In this document: positions 5,898 through 37,858 of the stretch, piece by piece | How positions within the stretch are numbered: the stretch's first letter is position 1 | Layout: every line of letters begins with the position of its first letter | NCBI GenBank assembly: GCA_015501585.1 | Contig: JADNRY010000081.1 | Location: 1-64,000 of the forward strand | Reading direction: 5' to 3' | DNA from: Rhodocollybia butyracea | Lineage: Eukaryota; Basidiomycota; Agaricomycetes; Agaricales; Omphalotaceae | DNA: 64,000 nucleotides | Translations under genes and position numbers: made by a program | The notes under the pieces: generated by a model | Told to the model about the DNA's origin: nothing | Seen by the model: only the letters and a program-made list of their open reading frames with translations | The model's database searches: none

Positions 5898-7468
5898 GCA
5901 GCTGGGAGATGATCTGAAGCATTACCAGAGGACTTTGTCCTTCTATCTGGTATGAAGGTTTCCCCAATGTTTGTAGTCTGGCAGAAGGGAAAACCTCGAG
6001 TTGTTATGGACCAGACTAGCTCTGGTCTGAATGATAACATTCCAAAAGCTGAGGGGAAGGTCAAGTATGATGATATGCACACTTTTGGTCAGGTTCTCAA
6101 TGATGTGCTGAAGGAGCATCCAACTGAAGAACTGATCCTGTTTAAGAGTGATGTTGCTAAGGCATACATCAGGGATAATCCTGCTGTTCGTGCTGAGCTG
6201 CAGCTAGCAGCTATTAGACTTCGTCAAACACACCTTTTAGAGGCCCTGGGTGAGCAGAGTCGCCGGAATGGCCACTCTGTTCGCCCTCCAATGGACATGA
6301 ACATATTGGATGCTCTTGTTCTGTTTCTCCAATCTCATGCCATTGAACAATCAACTAAGAACAACTATTCTACAGGTGCTAAGGACTATATTCGCTTCTG
6401 CACCTCTCATAACCTCTCTCTGGACCCTACACCAACCACACTATCTCGTTACATTGCCTACACTTCCAAACACATTGCCTCTGGGCCTAAATATCTCACT
6501 GGAGCAAGACATTACTTGAAACAGCTCTATCCTCACTTTGATGAATCCAGATCTGACCCTTTAGTTCAAGCTACTATTAGAGGGTCTAAGAAGGTCAGAG
6601 CTGACCCAGTGAAGCAAAAACCTCCTCTTAGAACCTCTCATATCATGCAATTCTATGAAAGGAGACATCTTTCTTACAACCATCTTCTGTTTGCAACTCT
6701 GATGAGTTGTGCCTTCTATGGGTGTCACAGAATTGGAGAACTCACTATTCCTAATCAGAAATCACTGTTTGACTGGAGGAAGATTATCAAGAGAGCTTCA
6801 CTCAAGCTTGAGTCCATGCAAGCTGGTTATCATCTTCCATATCACAAGGGTGATCCTTTCTATCAAGGAACTGAGATTCTCTTTTGTACACAGACACAGG
6901 TGCCACTTCTCATATGACACCTCATAAACACTGGATTCGAAATTACACTCCTCACAGAGTCCCTATTCGTCTTGCAGATCATACTGTAGTGTATTCAGAA
7001 GGCATTGGCGAAGTTTTATTTACCCCTGTTGTTAATGGCAAAGAAGTTAGAGATGTTTTGTTTCTAGAGTATTACATGTCCCTGCACTTAATAATAATCT
7101 CCTCTCAGTTCTTTACTTGACTAAACACAAAGGCTTTACTGTACAAATTCTTAGAGATACTATGGAGTTCTCACTTAATGGTTCTGTCCTGTTCACTGCT
7201 TCAGTTAATAATAAATCTGTTGGTTATCTTAATGGACATACTGTTAGTACAGAAGCTGAATGTGCACATGTTGGGTCGACTCTACCTCTTGATCTTGAGC
7301 TGTGGCATAGACGCTTCTTTCACTACAATCTGAGTGATGTTAGCAAGCTGTCTAAAAATCGGTTGGTTGAGGGCTTTAAACTCGATTCTAGTGCAAAGCC
7401 AGACCCAGTATGTGAACCATGTCTTGGTGGAAAGATGCATGCCAATCCTTTTCCTAGCAGTGAAACTC

Positions 7469-7764
7469 TGTTAGAGAAATCAGGTGACCAGGATCAAGGA
7501 GTACCTTGTCCCAAATCAAGTGACCTTGAAACAGGAGGGAAATAAATGTTGACACTAGCTGGGATTGAACCAGCGACCACACAGTACTCTAGACTGGTGC
7601 TCTAACCAACTGAGCTATAGTGCCGATGGTTAGAGTATGGATGTTAAGCCATATATCACTATGAGGATTGTTAGTCACTCAACTGGCCCACATTCATGTT
7701 GTACTGAAGCGGTTAGTCTTAGTACTAGAATGATGTAACCAGGGTCCAATTGCTAATGCCAACA
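7469..7764 (-). mobile_element. LTR-like insertion, family 2, carrying a tRNA-like gene
   Basis: A 296-bp unit with ends TGTTAG...CCAACA. It is flanked by the perfect 5-bp direct repeat AACTC (7464-7468, 7765-7769). Removing unit and one repeat rejoins the Copia reading frame (SSETL to TRAFEILELVH), so this is a clean insertion into Copia-1 pol. A near-identical copy with a different target duplication is at 23392-23687. It reads in the LTR sense on the minus strand (TGTTGGCATTAGCAATTG), by analogy with family 1. No other part of a retroelement is present. Confidence 0.9.
7550..7624 (-). tRNA. tRNA-like gene in family-2 LTR (anticodon position AGA)
   Basis: A cloverleaf is readable. Acceptor GGCACTA pairs with TAGTGTC (one G-T pair). 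D-arm is GCTC/GAGC, anticodon stem CAGT/ACTG with loop CTAGAGT (U33 present, anticodon AGA), T-stem GCTGG/CCAGC with loop TTCAATC, discriminator A. A box TAGCTCAGTTGG and B box GGTTCAATCCC are good. AGA would decode serine, but serine tRNAs need a long variable arm and this has a 6-base one, so charging identity is doubtful. Confidence 0.65.
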
Positions 7765-10481
7765 AACTCGTGCTTTTGAAATTTTAGAACTTGTTCATAT
7801 GGATGTACATGATACTGGTGTAATCTCGCCTTCTGGCTACCGCTACTGGATCCCCTTTATCTGCGACAAATCACGCTTCAGAGCAGTTGTACTACTTAAA
7901 AAGAAGAGTGAAGCTTTTGGTGCATTCAAGCGGTTTAAGGCCTGGGCGGAAAACTCTACTGGTAAAAAGATCAAGAAGATCAGACATGACAAAGGTGGCG
8001 AGTTTATATCCAAGGAATTTGAACAGTTCTTACAGCACGAGGGTATTGAAGTACAACGGACAACCAGGAATCGACCTCAGCAGAATGGAGTTGCTGAACG
8101 GCTTAACCGGACATTGGCTGAATTACTGACTGCTATGCTACTGGAATCGGGTTTACCAAAGACATTTTGGGCTGAATGCCTGGCTGCGCTTGTTTATGTG
8201 TTAAATCGATGCCCAACGTCTGCTGTTCCAGATGTCACTCCTTTTGAAGCCTGGTATAAAATTAAGCCTAAAGTTGACAATCTGCGTGTCTGGGGATGCA
8301 TTGCTTATGTGCATATTCAAAAGGACAAGAGGCCTCACTTTGGTTCACATATGGAGAAGTGTGTGTTTATTGGGTACCCTGAGGGAGTTAAAGGCTGGAA
8401 GTTCTGGAATCCTGTCACTAAAAAGGTCATTATCAGTGAACGTGCAGAATTTGACGAAAGATTCATGTATGGATCCAAGTCACCTAATCAGCCTGCCCTT
8501 CGTCGAGACCATACTCCTGTGACTAGTTCTGAACCATCTGCTACTCCCAAACCACCAGCCAGTACCACTAATGACTTGTTCACACCTCCTTCTCAATATG
8601 ATGACTCTGAATCTGAAACTGACTCTGTGGATGAAGAGGATATGCCTCCCCTTAACCACCCACCCGCCCCTGCTCTTGATCCTGAACCAGAACCAGAAAT
8701 ACCAGTAACTGAGGATGACGAATCTGATGGGCAACCCTTAGCTTTGAGACGACCTGCTCGTGCTCGCAAACCTCCTGGTAGATGGTGGGAAGTTAAACCT
8801 TCTTCTCAGGGCAATGCCCACAACAACAACCCTCATGATCACTCTGACAACTACGATGGTGATGTAGAGGAACAAGGACATGCTGCAGCAGCTTGTGTAG
8901 AACCTCGTAATTATCGAGATGCTATGCGCAGTCCTGAAGCCTTTAAATGGGAAGAAGCAATGAACGATGAGATCTCTGCTCATCTTGCTAATGGCACTTG
9001 GGATATCATTGACTTACCACCAGGAGAAAAAAGCTATTGGGTCGACTTGGGTATTTCACATTAAACACAATGCTGATGGCTCTATTGAGCGGTTTAAAGC
9101 ACGCTTGTGTGCTCAAGGCTTCAGCCAAAGACCTGGATTCGACTATCTCGAAACCTATGCTTCAACTCTCCGCTGGTCCTCATTACGCATTGTACTTGCT
9201 CTTGCCGCCATTGATGATATGGAGCTTCGCTCTGTTGATATCTCACATGCGTTTATCAATTCTGATATTGACACTACTATCTACATGAGACAGCCCGAGG
9301 GTTTCAAGCAAGGTGGACCAGAGAAAGTTTGCAGGCTAAACAAGTCCCTATATGGGTTAAAGCAGTCGCCCCGTCTTTGGAGTGAGAAACTCTGTGGTGT
9401 GTTTGCCAAGCTTGGCTTTAAACGCCTAGAGTCTGATCCATGCGTTTACATGTTTCAACGCGGTAACCTTAAAGTGATTGTTCCAGTTTGGGTAGATGAT
9501 ATCACTCTTGCTTGTAAAGACTCTGGTGTAATAGATCAATTTGTCCATGATCTACAGAAAGAACTTAAACTCCGTGACTTGGGCAGTACCGACTTCTTAC
9601 TTGGATTGGGAATCAGACGTGACCGCCAAAATCATAAACTCTATCTTAATGCCCGGCAATACATCCTGCGTAAACTTGACGAATTTGGCATGCAGGACTC
9701 TAAACCTGTTCACACTCCCATGAATCCCAATGTTACACTATCCAAAGATGACTGCCCACAAACACCAGAGGAGAAAGAAGAGATGATCAACATCCCCTAC
9801 ATGTCGGCAGTTGGCTCCCTATTGTTCTTGGCTATGATCCTTCGAGTTGACACTGCTTATCATAAGCATGTGGTGTCTTGACCCGTTTCAACTCTAATCC
9901 GGGCATGCTCACTGGATTGCTGTAAAGCACTTGTGGCGCTATTTGAAGGGATCTATTGATTACGAGTTGGAATTAGGGCCAGATCCTGATGCCCCCGACC
10001 TGATCACTGCTATTAGTGACTCAGACTTGGGTGGTAACAAAGACAATGGGAAGTCAACTACTGGATACATCATAAAGGTTGGATCAGGTGCTGTTAGCTG
10101 GAGTAGTAAACTACAACCTGTGGTTACTCTATCCTCTACTGAAGCCGAGTTTGTGGCATCAAATGCAGTGGGCAAAGAAGTGTTGGCAATTCGTTCTCTC
10201 CTTACTGAGCTTGGGTATAAAGTCGGCTGTCCTACCATTATCCATGTCGACAATCAATCCTCCATCCAAGTTGCCAAGAATCCAGAACATCATGGCAGAA
10301 TGAAGCACCTTGACAGGACTTTCTACTGGCTCAGAGAACAAGTTGTACATGGAAAATTGTTACCTTCTTATCTGCCCACTGAGGATAATCCAGCTGACCT
10401 GCTCACAAAGGCCCTTGCCAAACCAAAGGTGGAAAAGTTCCGATCTTTGATTGGACTTGTGAAACCATCCCTTCCTTAATT

Positions 10482-10663
10482 TGAAGGAAACACTATGTTG
10501 GGGGGTTGTGTGTGTGATGGACTTGCAGAAGTGTTCCATCAGGGGGTTGTGTTGAGTGTACATAGTGCTGTCTGAAGGAAACACTATGTTGGGGGGTTGT
10601 GTGTGTGATGGACTTGCAGAAGTGTTCCATCAGGGGGTTGTGTTGAGTGTACATAGTGCTGTC
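10482..10663 (+). repeat. 91-bp tandem duplication across polypurine tract and LTR start
   Basis: Units 10482-10572 and 10573-10663 are essentially identical. Each has a G-rich tract ending GGGGGTTG followed by the first 23 bp of the LTR (TGTTGAGTGTACATAGTGCT). The 3' end of the element therefore has two polypurine-tract/LTR-start junctions in tandem. Confidence 0.9.
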
Positions 10664-11137
10664 ACACATCTGCTTACCTAATCACCTTCCCACGACCATA
10701 TTCCATCTCTAAACTATGTACTTTTATAGTAATCTTTTGTTACCATGTTGATATCTGCTCTAGTTTACTTTTTGGCTTTCATTTGTTCAGTTTGCAAGAT
10801 ATTTTCTCAGTTTGAGTGGTGACTGTTGAAAATATCTATGCGCGCACAATTGTGGACACCCATTTTCACGCCTCATGCGTTTCAGTACAAATAGAACCAA
10901 ACAAATACCTATTCCTTACATAGTTAGAAAGAGTCCAAATCAATATTCACATATCTTTGATTCAGTTCATTGTTTGCTGTCTATTGGAGTACTGAGGAAC
11001 TATAAGGCTATTAGTACAACACTATAGTTGTTATACTGAGCATAACAACGCTGTACTAAGACGGGTATCACACTGCTTGGGTTAGCTGAAGGGCGCTCCA
11101 GTGTGTTTAACTTCAACAAGTGCAGTTTCCTCCAACA
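10641..11137 (+). mobile_element. Copia-1 3' LTR
   Basis: A 497-bp sequence TGTTGAGTGT...TCCTCCAACA preceded by the purine tract CAGGGGGTTG. A solo copy with a clean 5-bp target duplication at 22036-22531 fixes the boundaries. The 5' LTR is missing, because the upstream part of this element was lost at the fusion with the DIRS remnant. The LTR abuts a truncated family-1 LTR at 11138, suggesting Copia-1 inserted into that LTR. Confidence 0.9.
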
Positions 11138-11318
11138 TATAAGGCATTACATGGATATCATTTGATCCAACCCCCTAGGTTGATTATATAGACAAGGGCA
11201 TTTACACATAACACATACATCTCACCATTGTAGGGTGTCAGGATTGATTATTAATCCCAACACACTCCCGCAATCTGACACACTTATGTAACCTATTCTC
11301 CCGCACCATAGCGCTTCG

Positions 11319-11330
11319 GGGCCCATAACC
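11319..11330 (-). promoter_or_regulatory. Primer-binding site of the TRIM (half initiator-tRNA type)
   Basis: GGTTATGGGCCC directly after the 5' LTR. It is complementary to GGGCCCATAACC, the anticodon loop region of a eukaryotic initiator methionine tRNA. Drosophila copia is known to prime from such an internally cut initiator tRNA. The same 12 bases follow the 5' LTR of the Copia element at 37437-37858. Confidence 0.75.
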
Positions 11331-11355
11331 TGTTAAAGTCATGATTTATACAAAG

Positions 11356-11430
11356 TGTCCAGACTGGGAATTGAACCCAGGACCTTCTGGTGAAATCCCA
11401 AGATGCTCTAACCAACTGAGCTATCTGGCC
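11356..11430 (-). tRNA. tRNA-like sequence inside the TRIM 5' LTR
   Basis: The best-preserved family-1 copy. Acceptor GGCCAGA/TCTGGAC has one mismatch, D-arm GCTC/GAGC is intact, and the T-arm CTGGG-TTCAATT-CCCAG pairs perfectly. A and B boxes are present. The anticodon stem-loop is still irregular, so decoding function is unlikely. It may serve as an internal Pol III promoter. Confidence 0.5.
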
Positions 11431-11619
11431 ATGGTTACAACTACTTGGTATCTCATCAATGTAGTGACAGAGGTGCCCTAGTGTCCTCAACCATTATAAG
11501 GCATTACATGGATATCATTTGATCCAACCCCCTAGGTTGATTATATAGACAAGGGCATTTACACATAACACATACATCTCACCATTGTAGGGTGTCAGGA
11601 TTGATTATTAATCCCAACA

Positions 11620-11792: not shown

Positions 11793-11848
11793 TGTTGGGA
11801 TTAATAATCAATCCTGACACCCTACAATGGTGAGATGTATGTGTTATG
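11793..11848 (+). repeat. 5' fragment of a family-1 LTR
   Basis: The first 56 bp of the family-1 LTR (TGTTGGGATTAATAATC... to GTGTTATG), then sequence unrelated to the LTR. A truncated remnant. Confidence 0.85.
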
Positions 11849-12644: not shown

Positions 12645-14370
12645 GTCCTACAACTCCCTCTATTAATGATTTAATAGGCAAAAAAGCGAAATTTATGCAT
12701 AAATCTACAGATATCAATTATTACCCACTCCCCTAGGGCATTATAAAGTACTATAGAGTGCTCCAAATGTACCTACCATATCAGGGTATAGTATGCTAGA
12801 AGCCTGGGGCCAACCCCTGCCCTGGATACTTTGATACTTATCCTCTAATTTCGAAAAAATGTGTTTTTGATGGGAAGTTCTAAAGATCAGTAAAGACTGA
12901 TCTCCCAGGGGACATCAAGATGGGTCTGGGACCCAGAAAAGGTAGAGAACATATCAGGGTATCAGGGGATGAAAAGGATCACCCTTATCCATTCCAATCT
13001 GCATATTATATCAAGTAATCTTTAGACTCAACACTTTCCATTGATTTCCTTTTATGGACATACAGCTTTGGCCTCATCCACTAAAAAAGTCAAAGGTCAT
13101 CCAAAAAATATTTTGCAATCCAACCCCAGGCCCTTCCCACCACAGGATTGGCTTCATTTGTGGTGAGCAGCCTATTTTATATATAGAGAAGAGATCTGGA
13201 TGGCTACTAACTACCTCATGGAAAGAGTCCAGCCAGTTTTTGTGTTCAGTTTGGCCATTTCCCAATTAGGTAGGGAAAACAGCTTTGACCTCATCTACTG
13301 CAACAGATTTGTGATTTCTTAATTAAGTAATAAAAAGAGCTTTGGCCTCATCCACTTCAAAAGATTTGTCACTTCTCAATTAGGCAATAAAAACAGCTTT
13401 GACCTCATTTACTGCAAAATTTGTCATTTCCCGATTAAATGATGAAAACAGCTTTGACATCATCCACTGCAAAAGATTTGTTACTTCTTAATTAGGCAAT
13501 GAAAACAGCTTTGACCTCATACACTGCAAAAAGTTTTGGGGTTGCCTAATTAAGAAATAAAAACAGCTTTGACCTCATTAAAATAAAATTGCCTAATATA
13601 GTAATTTATCCAAAATGCCAAATGTGTCTGTGTTAGGGCATGTTCTGAAATATTAGGGCATGACCTAGGATGTTACAGAATGCCCTCCAATGTTAGTTCA
13701 TGACCCCCTTGGGCCTCACTTGTGAAGGTCAAGCCAGAGAGATGGCAAGAACTTTGTCTTAGGAGAAGAAGAATGGGGCTTAAAGATAAGAGAAGATAAC
13801 AGTTGATTTAACTAAGGAATCTAGATATCTCCAAGCACTTAAATACTTGAAATACTCATGAAACTCTAGTTGAAACATGTAATAGAAAGCTATGTATGTA
13901 CAAGTAAAACATGTAAGAACACAAGTGAAACTTGTAAGAAGAAATAACAAATATGTGATACATGTGAGAGGGTGCTGTGCTTATACCTACAAGGGTATAT
14001 CATGACATCACTCTGGCCATGCCCTGGAATATCATCAATATAGCTCCAATAACCAAAAAAAAAATTCCACCTAGGGGATGCCCTAAATGCCCTACCCCCT
14101 AGTGTTGGATTAGGGATTTGTCATTCCAAGCTTGTAATCTTATGTAGGTACAAAACTGTAGTCAGCGGATGCTTCTGCATCTGTTTGTCTCTCTCTTTTG
14201 ACTATCATGGAGAGGACAACCAGAATATACTTGTTGCTGCCTTTTTACCCTCAGGAGCCTATCACAACACCTAGGACATGTCCTGGGATTTGCTTCTAAT
14301 TAGTCAGGGCAATGTAACACTTTTGCAAGTCTAGTAGAAGGAAAAAGTGGTTGACTGAACTGATGTCACA
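12645..14370 (+). repeat. Third copy of the DIRS-associated leader repeat
   Basis: It matches the 2867-4560 arm in order: the CTATTAATGATTTAATAGGC segment, the TATCAGGGGATGAAAAGGATC block (near 12954), the GCTTTGACCTCATC tandem array, and the final CAATGTAACA/GACTGAACTG segment (near 14305-14360). The AGGTCATGACCT cluster is largely replaced by degenerate GGCATGACCTAGG-like sequence. No gag follows, because the DUF6589/RecQ transposon region begins shortly after. Confidence 0.7.
13063..13595 (+). repeat. Tandem array of about 57-bp units with core GCTTTGACCTCATCCACTGC
   Basis: From 13280 on, units repeat about every 57 bp. Each has AGCTTTGACCTCATCCACTGCAA variants followed by a segment like TTTGTCACTTCTTAATTAGG and an A-rich tail. 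Units lie near 13280, 13340, 13395, 13450, 13505 and 13566, with an isolated first unit near 13063. The core is much more conserved than the spacers. Confidence 0.8.
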
Positions 14371-22035: not shown

Positions 22036-22531
22036 TGTTGAGTGTACATAGTGCTGTCATACATCTGCTTACCTAATCACCTTCCCACGACCATATTCTA
22101 TCTCTAAAGTATATACTTTTATAGTAAAGTTTGATTACATTCTTCATATTCCTTCTAGTTCACTATTTTGCCTAGTTTACTTAGTTTTAGAGTTATTTCT
22201 TCAGTTTGAGTGGTGACTGTTGAAAATATCTATGCGCGCACAATTGTGGACACTCATTTTCACGCCTCATGTGTTTCACTACAAATAGAACCAAATAACT
22301 ACCTATTCCTTACTCAGTTAGAAAGAGTCCAAATCAATATTCACATTTCTTTGATTCATTTCATTGTTTGGTGTCTATTGGAGTACTGAGCAACTATAAG
22401 GCTATTAGTACAACACTATAGTTGCTATACTGAGCATAACAACACTGTACTAAGACAGGTAGCACACTGCTTGGGTTAGCTGAAGGGCGCTCCAGTGTGT
22501 TTAACTTCAACAAGTGCTGTTCTCTTCAACA
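22036..22531 (+). mobile_element. Solo LTR of the Copia-1 family
   Basis: 496 bp, TGTTGAGTGT...CTCTTCAACA, closely similar to the LTR at 10641-11137. It is flanked by perfect CCCAC duplications (22031-22035, 22532-22536). A clean solo LTR. Confidence 0.95.
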
Positions 22532-23391: not shown

Positions 23392-23687
23392 TGTTAGAGA
23401 AATCAGGTGACCAGGATCAAGGAGTACCTTGTCCCAAATCAAGTGACCTTGAAACAGGAGGGAAATAAATGTTGACACTAGCTGGGATTGAACCAGCGAC
23501 CACACAGTACTCTAGACTGGTGCTCTAACCAACTGAGCTATAGTGCCGATGGTTAGAGTATGGATGTTAAGCCATATATCACTATGAGGATTGTTAGTCA
23601 CTCAACTGGCCCACATTCATGTTGTACTGAAGCGGTTAGTCTTAGTACTAGAATGATGTAACCAGGGTCCAATTGTTAATGCCAACA
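23392..23687 (-). mobile_element. LTR-like insertion, family 2, second copy
   Basis: 296 bp, nearly identical to 7469-7764 (I noticed one difference near the right end). The perfect target duplication is TGCAG (23387-23391, 23688-23692). The high identity of the two copies implies recent mobility. Confidence 0.92.
23473..23547 (-). tRNA. tRNA-like gene in family-2 LTR, second copy
   Basis: The same sequence and cloverleaf as at 7550-7624, with anticodon position AGA, A box and B box intact. Confidence 0.65.
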
Positions 23688-24220: not shown

Positions 24221-24514
24221 TGTTGGGATTAATAATCAATCCTGACACCCTGATGGAATGTTGTATGTCATGTGCAAATATCCCATCCCAAATCTATAAG
24301 GCAATATGTAAGTCCAAAGAGGCAATATGTAGGTCCAAAGATATAGATGTTGGGACAATATGGGTGTTGCACCTCTGACAGTACTTCAGGGATCTTCCAT
24401 TAGCTGTAACCATGGCCAGATAGCTCAGTTGGTTAGAGCATCTTGGGATTTCACCAGAAGGTCCTGGGTTCAATCCCCAGTCTGGACACTTTGTCAGTCA
24501 TTATAACTTTAACA
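24221..24514 (+). mobile_element. Solo LTR, family 1 (variant), carrying a tRNA-like gene
   Basis: 294 bp, TGTTGGGATTAATAATC...CTTTAACA, flanked by perfect GAAAT duplications (24216-24220, 24515-24519). The first 38 bp and the 3' third with the tRNA-like module match the other family-1 copies, but the middle differs (for example CATGTGCAAATATCCC). This is therefore a distinct subfamily in which ends and tRNA module are conserved while the rest has diverged. Confidence 0.88.
24414..24488 (+). tRNA. tRNA-like sequence inside family-1 variant LTR
   Basis: Same module as at 11356-11430: acceptor GGCCAGA/TCTGGAC, D-arm GCTC/GAGC, T-arm CTGGG/CCCAG, A box TAGCTCAGTTGG. The anticodon loop is again non-canonical. 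Confidence 0.5.
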
Positions 24515-32155: not shown

Positions 32156-32577
32156 TATTAGAGGTTGATCGATAAGGCAGACAGTGTACTCTACACTGTT
32201 AGTTGGCTCTGGTCACACAGACACAGAGGAGACGAAGGTCCAGACACAGACACAAACAGAGAAAACACAACTTGATATTTCACAAGTACATACAGGCTTA
32301 AATACGAGTCCAGCGAGTTAATAATAAGTACAACGCGTGAAGCGTTCACAGACAGAGTGAGAGTAATAAGACGAGAGTGGAATGGAGCACAAGGTAAGTA
32401 AGTAAGAATAGACGAGAGCACGATAATAAAGCAATGGCGAGTGGGCAGGATAAAGATAGTACAACTAGTTCACATACCAGTAGTTACAGCGAGAGAGAAC
32501 GTTCCATAGATAGTAACGAAGTGAGAAGACTGTTCCATAGTAAGTATAATGAAGATGATAGATGACGAAGTCCAACA
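32156..32577 (-). repeat. Copia-2 3' LTR
   Basis: TGTTGGACTTCGTC...ACCTCTAATA on the minus strand. Offset to the other copy is exactly 5281 bp. Confidence 0.95.
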
Positions 32578-32584
32578 CTCCTCC

Positions 32585-35500
32585 TCAAACCTTTGCAAGT
32601 CCCATAGACGATGCGAAGTGTTTGGCTTTTGCTGAAGTCAAAGCCTTGGTGAAAATGTCTGCCGTCATGTCCTCGGTTGGACAGTAAGTAAGTCGAATGT
32701 TACCTTCTTCAATAGCATACCGAATGAAATGATACCGTATGTCGATGTGTTTGGTCCGTGCATGAAACCTGTCATCTTTCGCTAACGCAATGGCTGATTG
32801 GTTGTCCGAGTGAAGTCTGGCGATTGGAGTGAACAACTCGGAGATGAGGTTTCGAAGCCAAATTGCTTCCTTGGCTGCATGCGTGAGAGCGATGTACTCT
32901 GCTTCTGTAGTGGATAGAGAGATGGTGTCCTGTCGCTTTGATGACCATGATACTGCTCTGCCGTTAAGCATAAAAACATATCCTGATATGGCATGTCTGT
33001 CCTCTTGGGACATTCCATTGGCGTCCGTAAATCCCTCGACAGGATGTTTCTGCACTCCTCCTGAAGTTAGCCAATAATCCCGGGTATATTTCAGATAAGC
33101 GTATACACGCCTAAGTCCGTTCCAATGAGCGATGCCTGGATTCTGCGAGAATCAGGCAAGAATGGCAACCGTATAGGTGATGTCAGGTCGTGTGGCAATG
33201 AAAAGATATTGGAGAGCACCAAGTGCTTCTCGGTAAGGCTTATCCCGCATGGCGGCGATATCCTCCACAGTCTGTGGCATCTGGTCTTTGGTGAGATGAA
33301 TATGGGGGTCGAAAGGAATGGAGAGTGGCTTTATGTCAGAGAATCCGTAGCGGCTAAGAATAGCATCAATGTATGATCGCTGTGATAAACGGATAGATCT
33401 GCTGTGAAGTGATCTCTGAATCTCGATTCCAAGTAGCCAATGAATTTTGCCCTGATCTGTGACCTCGATAATCGTGCTGTTAGATTTCTTCAGCTGTGCC
33501 ATAATTTCCAGAGTTTTGGTAACCAATGTCATATCATCCACATGGATGAAAATGATTGTGAACGGGTTGGTGCAATAGAATACGGCATGATCAAAATCTG
33601 ACCGTTTGAAGCCTAGCTTCGTCATGATTTCCCTGAATCGCAAATACCATCTTCAACCTGCTTGTTTAAGTCCATACAATGCAAGTTTGAGTCGAAGTAC
33701 TTGTCCGGGTTTTACACCTAGATTAATGCCGGTTGGTGCCTTCATGTAGATCTTTTCCACTGTCATCAAGTTTGCCATAGAGATATGCCGATTTGACATC
33801 CATCTGATGAATGATCCAGCTGTGTTCAGCTGCAATGCTGAGAATAGTTCTGGCTGATGCGAGTTTGGCAACTGATGCGAAAGTTTCATCTGGAAAATAA
33901 TCAATGTCTGGGATTTGATTAAATCCTCGCACCACAAGTCTGGCTCTGTGACTAGTAAGCCGTCCTTGTTCATCTTTCTTGGTCCGATAAACCCATTTGG
34001 ATGTGAGAATGTTTGCATCTGATGGTGCCGTGACTATATCGTAAGTTCCACGCTGGTTGAGTCTGGATATCTCCTCGTTCATGGCTTCTTGCCATTTCGG
34101 CCAATCAGGTCGGCGCATAGCTTCTGCAACTGATAAAGGATCTGATTCGATTTCAGATGTGACTTGTGCAAGCGATGCTGTAAGGTATCGGAGTTCCGTG
34201 TTACCCTCTGCTGATCCTTCAATGATATCCCTGATTTTCTGAGTGGGTCGCCTGACACGTTTTCCGGTAAGTTGTTCCGGCGGGATGGGCTCTGCAATTT
34301 CGTCAGGTACAGGAATAATAGGCTGTTCCAACTCAGTGACTGATGTTTCCAAATTTTCCAAATTTCCATCCTCCTCCTCAATGAGTCAGATCTGCCTGTT
34401 GGAAATTGCTACATTCCGTTCCGTGGTAACTGTTTGTCGCTGTGGCCAATAGATAAAATATCTGTTAGATTCTGTGTCTATACCTATCCATCTTCCTTCT
34501 TGTGCCTGTGGTTCAAATTTTCCTGGCTCTTTCTCCTTCTTTACATACACTATGCTCCCGAATATTTGAAAGTTAGAAATGTCGGGTTTTTGATTGAACC
34601 ATTTTTCGTATGGTGTCGCCATATTTATTCCCTTCTTTGGTGTCCTGTTCCAAATATAAACCACGTACTTCATCATAAATCCCCATAGCCATTTAGGGAG
34701 TCCTGATGAAATGATTAGACTTTGTACTGCATTCAGTAGAGTCCGATGAGTGCGTTCCGCTATGCCGTTATGTTCCGGAGTGTCATGCACCGTTAATCTC
34801 CGCTGGGTGCCAAGTCGTTCCAGGTACTGATTAAATTCTCGGCTAAGAAACTCTCCCCCTCGATCAGAGTGAAGAATTTTAACAGTGATGCCATATTGAG
34901 TCTGGAGATTGGTTTGAATAATGACGTACTGGGTGAATGCTTCATCCTTGCTTTTCAGCAATGGTTCCTCTAACCATAAGGTCGCCTCGTCGACTATGGT
35001 GAGGGCGTAAGTGCAACGGTTGATAGTTTGAACTGATGCAGGTCCCCAAATGTCCATGTGAAAAACATCTCTGTAATTCTCCGCTCGTGGAGAAGACCGT
35101 AATTTGGCAATCAGAAATCTTGCTGCCTTAGCTAGCAAGCATGTACGGCATTCCGGCTCGTCCATGTGAGATTTATCCAATCTCATCCCATTGATCTGGT
35201 TGTGTGCGAATAAATGCTTAATATAAGCATAGTTCTGATGGCCTAAGATGCAGTGGGCATCATAGAGTGATACCAGTCAATCTTTGGCAACATAAGCATA
35301 TTCCTCCATGGGAATCTGGTAGAGTCCATGGATCTTCGGAATACGTGCAACGATCCTGTTGTTGGGGTCAGTCATGGTGAGTAAACCATTCCCAATGTGG
35401 ATATTGTATCCATCATCATCGAGTTTTCCCAAGGAAATAAGAGTGTTGGGAATGTTGGGGCATAGGAGGGCGTTATGAAGCGGGACGGTTCGAGTATTGC

Positions 35501-37382
35501 CATGGTTATCAATTGGAAAATCCAAATGAAGCGTACCTGCCATGCTAGAATTAAAAGTTCCGGCATTGGCTGCTTGAATGACTTTAGTCGGAATAGACTT
35601 TAGATCTTGGAGGCTGTCCTCCATAGGAGTCATGTGGCTCGAACATCCGGAATCAAATAGTATAGCCCCTTGGCTATGTACTCCCATCATTGCTGTTTCG
35701 TGTTCATCAGCAATATCATTGAAATCAAATGTGAGATATGTTTCTGCTGTATTTGGGGACATCTGGAAAGATGCCGTCGAGTTTCCAAGCTCGGTGTAGG
35801 ATTTGGCGGGAGGAAAGACGAAGCTGGTGTCCGATGACAACTCAATGGCTGCCCAAGATGATTCTGGAACTTCTTCAATCTGTGATGAAGATGCGGTTTC
35901 CTTCCCCTTTGGCCTAGATCTCCAATTTCCATCTGATTTCTTCCCCTCTTTTGGCTCGTGAGTTTCCCTACTTTCTTTGGCTTGATTAGCCTGTGGCCGT
36001 TTTGGCGATGGACATGTGCTTGCAAAATGTCCTTTCCCTCCACAATTAAAACATGCGGAAGTAGACCTGTTAGGTCCATTTGGTTTTGAGTTTCCTCGGC
36101 CCCTAGAAAATCCCCTCTGAGAAAATCCTCGACCTCGGAATCCACCTCGACCTCGGGAATTTCCCGCATAGTTAGCTGATTCCTTCTTCCCCTTGTTGTG
36201 ATGACTAGCACTACGTATGTGTCCCTGTGCTTCTGCACAAATGGTGGCAATCAATTCCTGTGTTGCCAGTTTCTTGTTGGTTCGAGATGTGACTACAACA
36301 AGTGCGTTTATGGTGGGTCTGAATTGGTTGGGGATAGAGGATATGATGGTGTTGTTGAACATTTCATCGCTAAATTCGATGCCGCAGGTTTCAAGACTGT
36401 CTCGGATTTCCAACATAGTGTCTAGGTGTTCATTAACCCTAGATGGTTCATAGCAACGCATGGTGTGAAGCTGTCTCTGCAGATGTGATTCCGTGAGCGC
36501 ATTTTTGGAGTCAAAATCAGCGATTAAATTTGTCCACACATCACGAGTGTTGGTATAATTTCTATACCTTCAAAAAATGCCATCCGATAATCTGCCAATT
36601 AAAGCATTTAGCAAATCTGTATCAGATGATTTATCTCCTGTATTTCCGGCTTCTCGTGTGTCTGTTGCTTCATGGGGGTTCCATGTGAGGTACTGGCCAT
36701 AATTTATGGACTTTGCAGCTAATTCTACTCGACTTTTCCATGTGTCCCAGTTCGATCCATCCGGTTTAAGGGTGGTGACCTTGTCAAATGCTTTCAGTGC
36801 TTTGGACATCTCGTCGTCAGATGAGTCGCTATCTGATTCTTCTTCGTCTGATGATCCTGGATCGTCTCCGTCAGATGGTGGTGAGCTGTGAGGTAAATCT
36901 GATTTTGGGATCAAAGGAGTATCGTGATCTGATGGTACAGGTGATGGTGTTGGTGATGGAGCTGGTGGGGGAGGCGGTGGTGGCTGCGGCTTTGGCTGTG
37001 TTGGTTGTGATTGAGAGGCCTGTGATGCTTGTGATGATGCCCTTGATATTTTCTGGGCTGGCTGCTGTGGAGGTGATGTTGGTGCCGCTGGTTTGGGTAC
37101 TGCTGCTTTCTCCTGGGATTTTTCAATTCTGTGTGCTATTCCAGATGTTATTTCTGGTATGTCTTCTGTAGGACTGGGTATGTTGTATCTGTTTGGACAG
37201 ATTTTCCGGTTACAAAATTCGTATTTTCCTGTCTGTAAGCTGTTGTAACAATCTTGGTATTTTGTTGGAATCCAAAGATGTGGTCTTAGGGCACAAGGAA
37301 GTTCTGGGTTGTTGGCGGCAACTGGCTTAGTTGTGGCTGAAGCTCGTGTGGATGGTTTCGATGAGCTGGGTTGTTGTGACAT
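32585..37382 (-). pseudogene. Copia-2 gag-pol polyprotein
   Basis: Start at 37382 (MSQQPSSSKP). Gag has a Pro/Gln-rich linker and acidic Ser-rich stretch, then a CCHC knuckle CFNCGGKGHFASTC (near 36040). Protease ILFDSGCSSHMTP, zinc-binding pre-integrase (CRTCLLAKA), integrase core (HSDRGGEFLSREF, PEHNGIAERTHRT), RT with DVKSAYLYGKL and IHVDDMTLVT, and RNase H (LSTTEAEYIALTHA, HSDNQSAIALA) follow in Copia order. In-frame TGA codons lie at 36570-36572, 35277-35279, 34386-34388, 33653-33655 and 33152-33154. A one-base frameshift lies near 33755. Otherwise one frame spans the whole gene. Confidence 0.92.
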
Positions 37383-37424
37383 CAACAATGGTGTCTGGGA
37401 TGGTGGCGTCAATGGTTAGGCTCG

Positions 37425-37436
37425 GGGCCCATAACC
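37425..37436 (-). promoter_or_regulatory. Copia-2 primer-binding site (half initiator-tRNA type)
   Basis: GGTTATGGGCCC lies directly after the 5' LTR and is complementary to the anticodon loop of initiator Met tRNA. It is identical to the TRIM primer site at 11319-11330. Confidence 0.8.
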
Positions 37437-37858
37437 TATTAGAGGTTGATCGATAAGGCAGACAGTGTACTCTACACTGTTAGTTGGCTCTGGTCACACA
37501 GACACAGAGGAGACGAAGGTCCAGACACAGACACAAACAGAGAAAACACAACTTGATATTTCACAAGTACATACAGGCTTAAATACGAGTCCAGCGAGTT
37601 AATAATAAGTACAACGCGTGAAGCGTTCACAGACAGAGTGAGAGTAATAAGACGAGAGTGGAATGGAGCACAAGGTAAGTAAGTAAGAATAGACGAGAGC
37701 ACGATAATAAAGCAATGGCGAGTGGGCAGGATAAAGATAGTACAACTAGTTCACATACCAGTAGTTACAGCGAGAGAGAACGTTCCATAGATAGTAACGA
37801 AGTGAGAAGACTGTTCCATAGTAAGTATAATGAAGATGATAGATGACGAAGTCCAACA
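37437..37858 (-). repeat. Copia-2 5' LTR
   Basis: 422 bp, apparently identical to 32156-32577. Confidence 0.95.

Follow-up and report, generated by a model that had tools for sequence, protein, structure and literature searches.

A TRIM retroelement whose LTR contains a tRNA-like module with A and B boxes was found in a 64,000-nt stretch of Rhodocollybia butyracea DNA (the window), directly against the 3' LTR, designated E, of a Copia element; E LTRs have the primer site of the TRIM in common with it. Elsewhere in the genome, E LTRs were joined to TRIM interiors exactly at this site. The model that best accounts for these findings, to which a probability of about 0.82 is given, is that TRIMs of the Helenus/TRIMp3 kind are transcribed by RNA polymerase III (Pol III), mobilised by E-type Copia elements and at times fused to them by plus-strand transfer. 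By its structural features the element is a member of the published Helenus/TRIMp3 class, representing new families in a host whose genus name does not occur in the main text of that report (Kojima 2024, PMC10886601).

As shown in Table 1, the window copy consisted of a full 5' LTR, a 68-bp interior running from a primer binding site (PBS) to a purine tract (PPT), and a second LTR. This layout, and a tRNA-like, Pol III-type module inside the LTR, had been described in an earlier note on this DNA and were both recovered, the module in the LTR at 11331-11619 having a perfect A box and a perfect B box; the second LTR, however, proved to be only 125 bp long and devoid of the module, so that the window copy has one module instead of two. 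It was cut at 11138, where the Copia LTR stops (11137); the other end was not found, and the abutting Copia insertion is a candidate cause of the cut only. Intact 646-bp copies with 5-bp target site duplications (TSDs) were present elsewhere in the genome, for example at C625:30231-30876 (GAATT) and on C901 (CAGGC). Two-LTR units measured 646-656 bp, with a longest ATG ORF of 46-82 aa in four units, in agreement with the size (under 1000 bp) and non-coding nature of Helenus, and when the paired LTRs of a single copy each of A, S and D were compared, no differences were observed.

Table 1. Retroelement features of the window
Feature	Position	Strand	Details
Solo A LTR	675-956	plus	TSD GCTTT; damaged B box in module (about 860-933)
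Solo S LTR, 296 bp	7469-7764	minus	5-bp TSD; module at 7550-7624 Ser(AGA)-like (Rfam 57.2 bits)
Copia pol ORFs upstream of E LTR	7799-9064; 8967-9881	plus	Pfam: integrase core (32.9 bits, cut-off 32.6) and SH3-like domain; RVT_2
E LTR, 497 bp, 3' LTR of Copia element	10641-11137	plus	purine tract GGGGGTTG just before; abuts TRIM
TRIM A, truncated 3' LTR	11138-11262	minus	U3 only, first 125 bp, without module
TRIM A interior, 68 bp	11263-11330	minus	starts with PBS GGTTATGGGCCCCG (11330-11317), ends with purine tract GCGGGAGTG
TRIM A, full 5' LTR, 289 bp	11331-11619	minus	ends TGTTGGG...TTTAACA; A reference
tRNA-like module of TRIM A	11356-11430	minus	A box TAGCTCAGTTGG, B box GGTTCAATTCC; ARAGORN, Rfam RF00005 48.8 bits, box scan
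Piece of another A LTR, first 56 bp	11793-11848	plus	
Second E LTR	22036-22531	plus	89.7% to first; CCCAC on both sides
Solo S LTR	23392-23687	minus	5-bp TSD; module 23473-23547
Solo B LTR, 294 bp	24221-24514	plus	TSD GAAAT; module 24414-24488, Rfam 46.5 bits
Second Copia element	32156-37736		two identical 300-nt direct repeats; gag and RVT_2; integrase match just below Pfam cut-off

The Copia neighbour, which abuts the TRIM and has its primer site in common with it, was not mentioned in the earlier note. Two identical 91-nt tandem units (10482-10663), directly upstream of the E LTR, included the Copia purine tract together with the initial 23 nt of that LTR, and the solo S LTR at 7469-7764 was located directly upstream of the Copia pol ORFs. 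An ORF at 5952-6917 appeared by eye retroelement-like in its N-terminal part and tyrosine recombinase-like in its C-terminal part, with no Pfam match; tandem direct repeats with 57- and 112-nt spacing were observed at 13250-13587. The window also encodes a SUN-domain protein with 100% identity to R. butyracea BDP27DRAFT_1365321.

LTRs of four kinds were found in the genome, namely A (289 bp), B (294 bp), D (294 bp) and S (296 bp), of which S is a separate family whose module differs in being Ser(AGA)-like. A search of the assembly (95.6 Mb, 1381 contigs) gave at least 35 A, 26 B, 26 S and 10 D near-full copies in the loci compared; these counts are lower bounds, the best 40 candidates per query having been scored, of 92 and 104, and they omit an A copy (L008, ends read by eye) and two S/S units (L092, L093), with the TSDs GGATT, CAACC and GGAAA. 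In the genome stretches fetched, a 5-bp TSD was present in 66 of 78 units, 65 of them exactly at the expected ends and one with shifted ends. The 78 units are the 86 rows minus 8 single LTRs belonging to two-LTR units, the two-LTR units on C1081 and C979 having been double-counted among the rows; 77 are distinct by their flanks. The same insertion occurred on two contigs in two pairs, an S copy on C694/C598 and the B LTR of a D..B unit on C339/C929, and such pairs with the same flanks are probably haplotypes. Units of the order LTR-PBS-interior-PPT-LTR with TSDs were found for types A, D and S, while four B LTRs and three interiors formed a tandem with the single TSD CTCTT (L017:823-2201, corresponding to C695:40823-42201). 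The LTRs, PBS, PPT and 5-bp TSDs ruled out a SINE.

In the window, the solo LTRs at 675-956 and 24221-24514 had the 5-bp duplications reported for them in the earlier note, and the module was inside the TSD-bounded unit, as that note had it; the two S LTRs, both of which also have a tRNA-like module and a TSD, were absent from it. An A, B, D, S or E LTR was spanned by 11 of 65 distinct TSD sites (12 rows, one site twice), nine of the 11 in E; no insertion preference for Pol III modules was seen among the 65 sites, with counts that are not normalised to E copy number. Nesting was also observed, with an E LTR inside the 3' LTR of an A element (L020:7967-8463) and further cases that involved E, A, D and S.

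Both ARAGORN and Rfam called a tRNA inside the LTR for the A module at 11356-11430 and the B module at 24414-24488. The Rfam scan of the whole window at gathering cut-offs gave only four tRNA matches (46.5-57.2 bits) and no 5S match, by which Cassandra proper was rejected. Pairs of A and B boxes 20-60 bases apart, based on TRGYNNARNNGG and GGTTCRANYCC, which we take to be the consensus, numbered four in the window, all within these LTRs, versus none in 20 first-order simulated windows; no such pair was found by the box scan in the E LTR. All of A, B, D and S carried both sequences at equal spacing, and both boxes were intact in 94 of 97 LTR copies of these types. TTTT, with six occurrences in E, was absent from all four TRIM LTR references, as was AAAA, an absence that is weak, the chance of none per LTR being 0.18-0.48 and A, B and D not being independent.

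Between families, the module was clearly retained while U3 diverged: matches in U3, module and U5 were 136/208, 74/75 and 20/26 for A-B, 121/213, 74/75 and 23/25 for A-D, and 124/218, 75/75 and 20/26 for B-D. The U3 identities (57-65%) exceeded those of shuffled U3 (mean 0.48, maxima 0.51-0.53; 100 shuffles per pair). Since A and D also share U5, exchange of whole R-U5 ends explains part of this retention, and the B pairs are the only ones that separate the two. A set of U5 changes was shared by 10 of 24 B copies, and eight B copies (two of them one insertion) were 100% identical to D over its last 107 bases, indicating that U3 and R-U5 ends have been exchanged. The match between A and D starts at position 177 of A, and the A box follows 20 bp further downstream (197). 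Pol III is expected to start a short distance upstream of an A box; the proximity of the two points is suggestive only.

The earlier note had observed that the module persists in the 24.2-kb variant, where the LTR middle differs, which was correct, and had read this as selection on the module. That reading was only partly supported, by the comparison between families (74-75/75 versus 57-65% in U3). Within families, the ratio of shared to private changes was 1/12 for the module, 7/26 for U3 and 11/5 for U5 after removal of five outlier copies (two A, two B, one S); excess conservation of the module was not significant against U3 (p = 0.41) and borderline against U3 plus U5 (p = 0.05). With all copies kept, the module showed 1/23 versus 23/40 in U3 plus U5 (p = 0.0025), 13 of the 23 shared changes outside the module being in U5, where exchange occurs. 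A 3' LTR without the module was found in one TSD-bounded copy (C772), besides the truncated LTR of the window.

By these within-family values, and by the non-tRNA U5 that A and D have in common, the module might be a passive relic, a captured tRNA-like piece in a Pol II-transcribed LTR that is carried along because R-U5 blocks are copied and exchanged. Minimum-energy folding is in keeping with this, the A and B modules having formed neither anticodon arm nor cloverleaf (z -1.05 and -0.83), while the S module came near a cloverleaf (z -1.96). However, the A-B module match of 74/75 adjoins a U5 of only 20/26, both boxes have stayed intact in nearly all copies, and S, although its module is only 52/80 like that of A, retains both boxes at the same spacing; a passive relic is therefore considered unlikely.

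The interiors of A/B and D start with GGTTATGGGCCCCG, whose 14 nt are exactly the reverse complement of the region around the anticodon of the host initiator tRNA-Met (iMet), located at C1:367507 and C1:367862, and the sequence after E LTRs starts in the same way; in several fetched loci, an E LTR was followed by this 14-nt PBS and then by a different interior. The S interior starts with TGGTAGCAGCAA, 12 nt complementary to the 3' end of iMet, added CCA included. With the purine tracts GCGGGAGTG and TTGGGGGGTTG, the TRIMs have both the PBS and the PPT of Helenus; a similar purine tract was the only link seen between S and E. Exact AACA-plus-PBS sites numbered 186 in the genome. Besides E, two or more element families (F and G) have this PBS for the initiator-tRNA anticodon (L075-L090, L116-L124), and the second Copia element of the window has the PBS-like GGTTATGGGCCCCGAGCC beside its LTR; thus, E need not be the sole helper.

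An exact genome-wide pattern of LTR end, PBS and TRIM-type interior gave 17 5' junctions, 11 with a TRIM LTR (two in one tandem, and two from one insertion on two contigs) and six with an E LTR. At the other side, all 19 junctions between a TRIM interior and a 3' LTR were TRIM-type and none E, one of the 19 being a patch on C695 (see below). In the E-TRIM units the 5' LTR is of type E, the interior and the 3' LTR are those of a TRIM, and six of six switch at the PBS. Matching 5-bp TSDs were found in three of the four testable fusions, on C1081 (TTAGC), C979 (CAAAC) and C694 (AAACA), while the flanks of that at C494:678312 did not match; excluded from this count were the fusion on C816, which runs on upstream into a Copia purine tract, and that on C939, whose E LTR is interrupted by another E LTR. 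In a FastTree phylogeny of 31 E LTRs, in which four of the six fusions were placed, C816 and C694 fell in one subclade and C1081 and C979 in another (the L074 row being the interrupting LTR, not the fused one). The reverse fusion, a TRIM LTR with an E interior, was not found by exact pattern, and nine junctions starting CGG that were considered as such belong to another family. Junctions of the form CCAACA/TCAACA..CGA numbered 45 (44 and 1, with 11 for TTAACA); six are the E-TRIM units, 14 of 14 others fetched were family F, and the remaining 25 have no TRIM-type interior start.

Mixed units with TSDs were also formed between TRIMs, namely B..D (GCTAG, C1238), D..B (CCAGG, C929) and A..deleted-B (GATTT, C772). 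Unlike LTRs were thus present in 9 of 17 two-LTR A/B/D units (six E-TRIM, three TRIM-TRIM), a share that overstates their frequency, since copies with like LTRs are reduced to solo LTRs; relative to all distinct units it was 9 of 85 (the 77 distinct units, five mixed units, L008, L092 and L093). The eight like-LTR units are C625, C901, C694:450, C694:17507, the window copy, the C695 tandem and two D/D units. In addition, the gag-like and pol sequences of an E-type Copia on C695 were separated by a 119-bp TRIM B piece, which spans from just inside the PBS to U3 base 63 and has a few letters in common at its left joint. This patch fits template switching, but it stands alone and might also have arisen by DNA repair.

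The two LTRs that reverse transcription normally produces are copies of a single U3-R-U5. A unit whose LTRs are unrelated, joined at the PBS and enclosed by one TSD is expected if E plus-strand strong-stop DNA pairs with a TRIM minus strand through the shared PBS, for which the two cDNAs must be present in the same particle. The simplest mechanism for the fusions is such a plus-strand transfer involving the cDNAs of TRIM and Copia. Recombination at the DNA level between integrated elements, without a part for reverse transcription, might be suspected from the nesting and clustering of the elements, the C494 fusion without a TSD and the continuation of that on C816 into Copia-type sequence upstream. 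Yet three fusions have identical 5-bp flanks, unexpected from the joining of two separate insertions; no significant similarity was detected between the E LTR and the A or B LTRs, the common sequence at the joint being the 14-nt PBS; and all six fusions switch there. DNA recombination as their source is accordingly judged very unlikely.

All 55 Lys and Ser calls by ARAGORN in twenty loci (L009-L028) fell in LTR copies or pieces of these families. No source for the modules was found among 21 host tRNA sequences (drawn from 59 listed of 4704 first-look candidates, plus iMet), the best local score to the A module being 17.5 for 75 nt, and among the host genes sampled, those for Lys(TTT) and Lys(CTT) contain introns. 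That the modules are dispersed functional tRNA-Lys and tRNA-Ser genes is hardly credible, despite the ARAGORN and Rfam calls and the near-cloverleaf of S, given the unformed A/B anticodon arm and the introns of the sampled Lys genes (by which the Lys(TTT) call was rejected as a gene), the distance of the sampled tRNAs from the A module and the confinement of the calls to LTRs. In genomes with such TRIMs, LTR copies inflate tRNA counts.

Under the model of Copia-mobilised TRIMs, the A and B boxes in the 5' LTR would recruit Pol III, which would start a few bases upstream of the module and continue across R-U5, the interior (58-68 bp) and the 3' LTR. The TRIM RNA would enter particles made by an E-type Copia element, where initiator tRNA-Met may prime the first strand, by its anticodon loop at the A/B/D sites and by its 3' end at the S site. 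Copia enzymes would then finish the cDNA and integrate it, presumably making the 5-bp duplications observed. Copia plus-strand strong-stop DNA may sometimes transfer to a TRIM minus strand via the common 14-nt primer site, which would give the E 5' LTR, TRIM interior and TRIM 3' LTR found within TSDs; minus-strand transfer between TRIM RNAs could give the swaps of U3 versus R-U5 and the A/B/D mosaic. The chances seem even that Pol III-transcribed TRIMs and Pol II-transcribed Copia elements routinely share particles with the iMet primer site as a regular recombination joint, that unlike-LTR units are the lasting record of this, and that the U3/R-U5 swap points may mark the Pol III start. Unlike-LTR units cannot collapse to solo LTRs as others do and, on this reading, would preserve in the genome a fossil record of trans-mobilisation. 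TSD-flanked units with one Copia LTR and one TRIM LTR are physical evidence of joint reverse transcription, and LTR mismatch at the PBS with matching TSDs offers a genomic test for helpers elsewhere.

The earlier note had proposed a fungal parallel to plant Cassandra with a tRNA in place of 5S rRNA. Such an element is present; it is not new in kind, as tRNA-like TRIMs were described as Helenus/TRIMp3 in rust fungi and a few Agaricomycetes (Kojima 2024, PMC10886601). Similar to Helenus as described there, the R. butyracea TRIMs have A and B boxes in the LTR, 5-bp TSDs (as for Helenus in fungi), many solo LTRs and inflated tRNA predictions. The Helenus PBS matches mostly the iMet anticodon loop and in some cases the 3' end, both modes occurring also in R. 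butyracea; the modules resemble Lys(TTT) and Ser(AGA) here by their tRNA calls, Ser-AGA being known also from rust Helenus; and fungal Helenus is Copia-linked, a Copia helper being indirectly supported in R. butyracea by the shared PBS, the TSD-flanked E-TRIM units and the Copia pol next to an E LTR. Help by Copia was argued in that paper from PBS similarity and one shared interior, and how dependence on a helper is maintained is stated there as not known. E-TRIM unlike-LTR units, U3/R-U5 mosaics and a TRIM patch in Copia were observed in R. butyracea and not seen for Helenus in its main text, where "chimer", "template switch" and "strand transfer" do not occur. In a limited literature search, mostly of titles and the beginnings of abstracts, no prior report of Copia-TRIM unlike-LTR units was found.

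With Cassandra of plants, as described in PMC7215508, the R. butyracea TRIMs share a Pol III-type promoter, of the small-RNA kind, in the LTR, and the tandem LTR-interior arrays of Cassandra resemble that at C695:40823-42201. However, Cassandra carries 5S rRNA sequence where the R. butyracea TRIMs are tRNA-like, and its LTRs have conserved Pol III terminators, whereas the TRIM references have no TTTT. Co-packaging with template switching was suggested for centromeric retrotransposons (PMC4079200), and complex insertions of plant Copia elements, also flanked by TSDs, were read in the same way (Sabot and Schulman 2007, PMC1950507). Those units have three LTRs with similar outer LTRs and were attributed to a switch between R regions, whereas the R. 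butyracea units have unrelated outer LTRs and a joint at the PBS. Thus, the R. butyracea TRIMs belong to a known class and provide unusually direct evidence of their partner.
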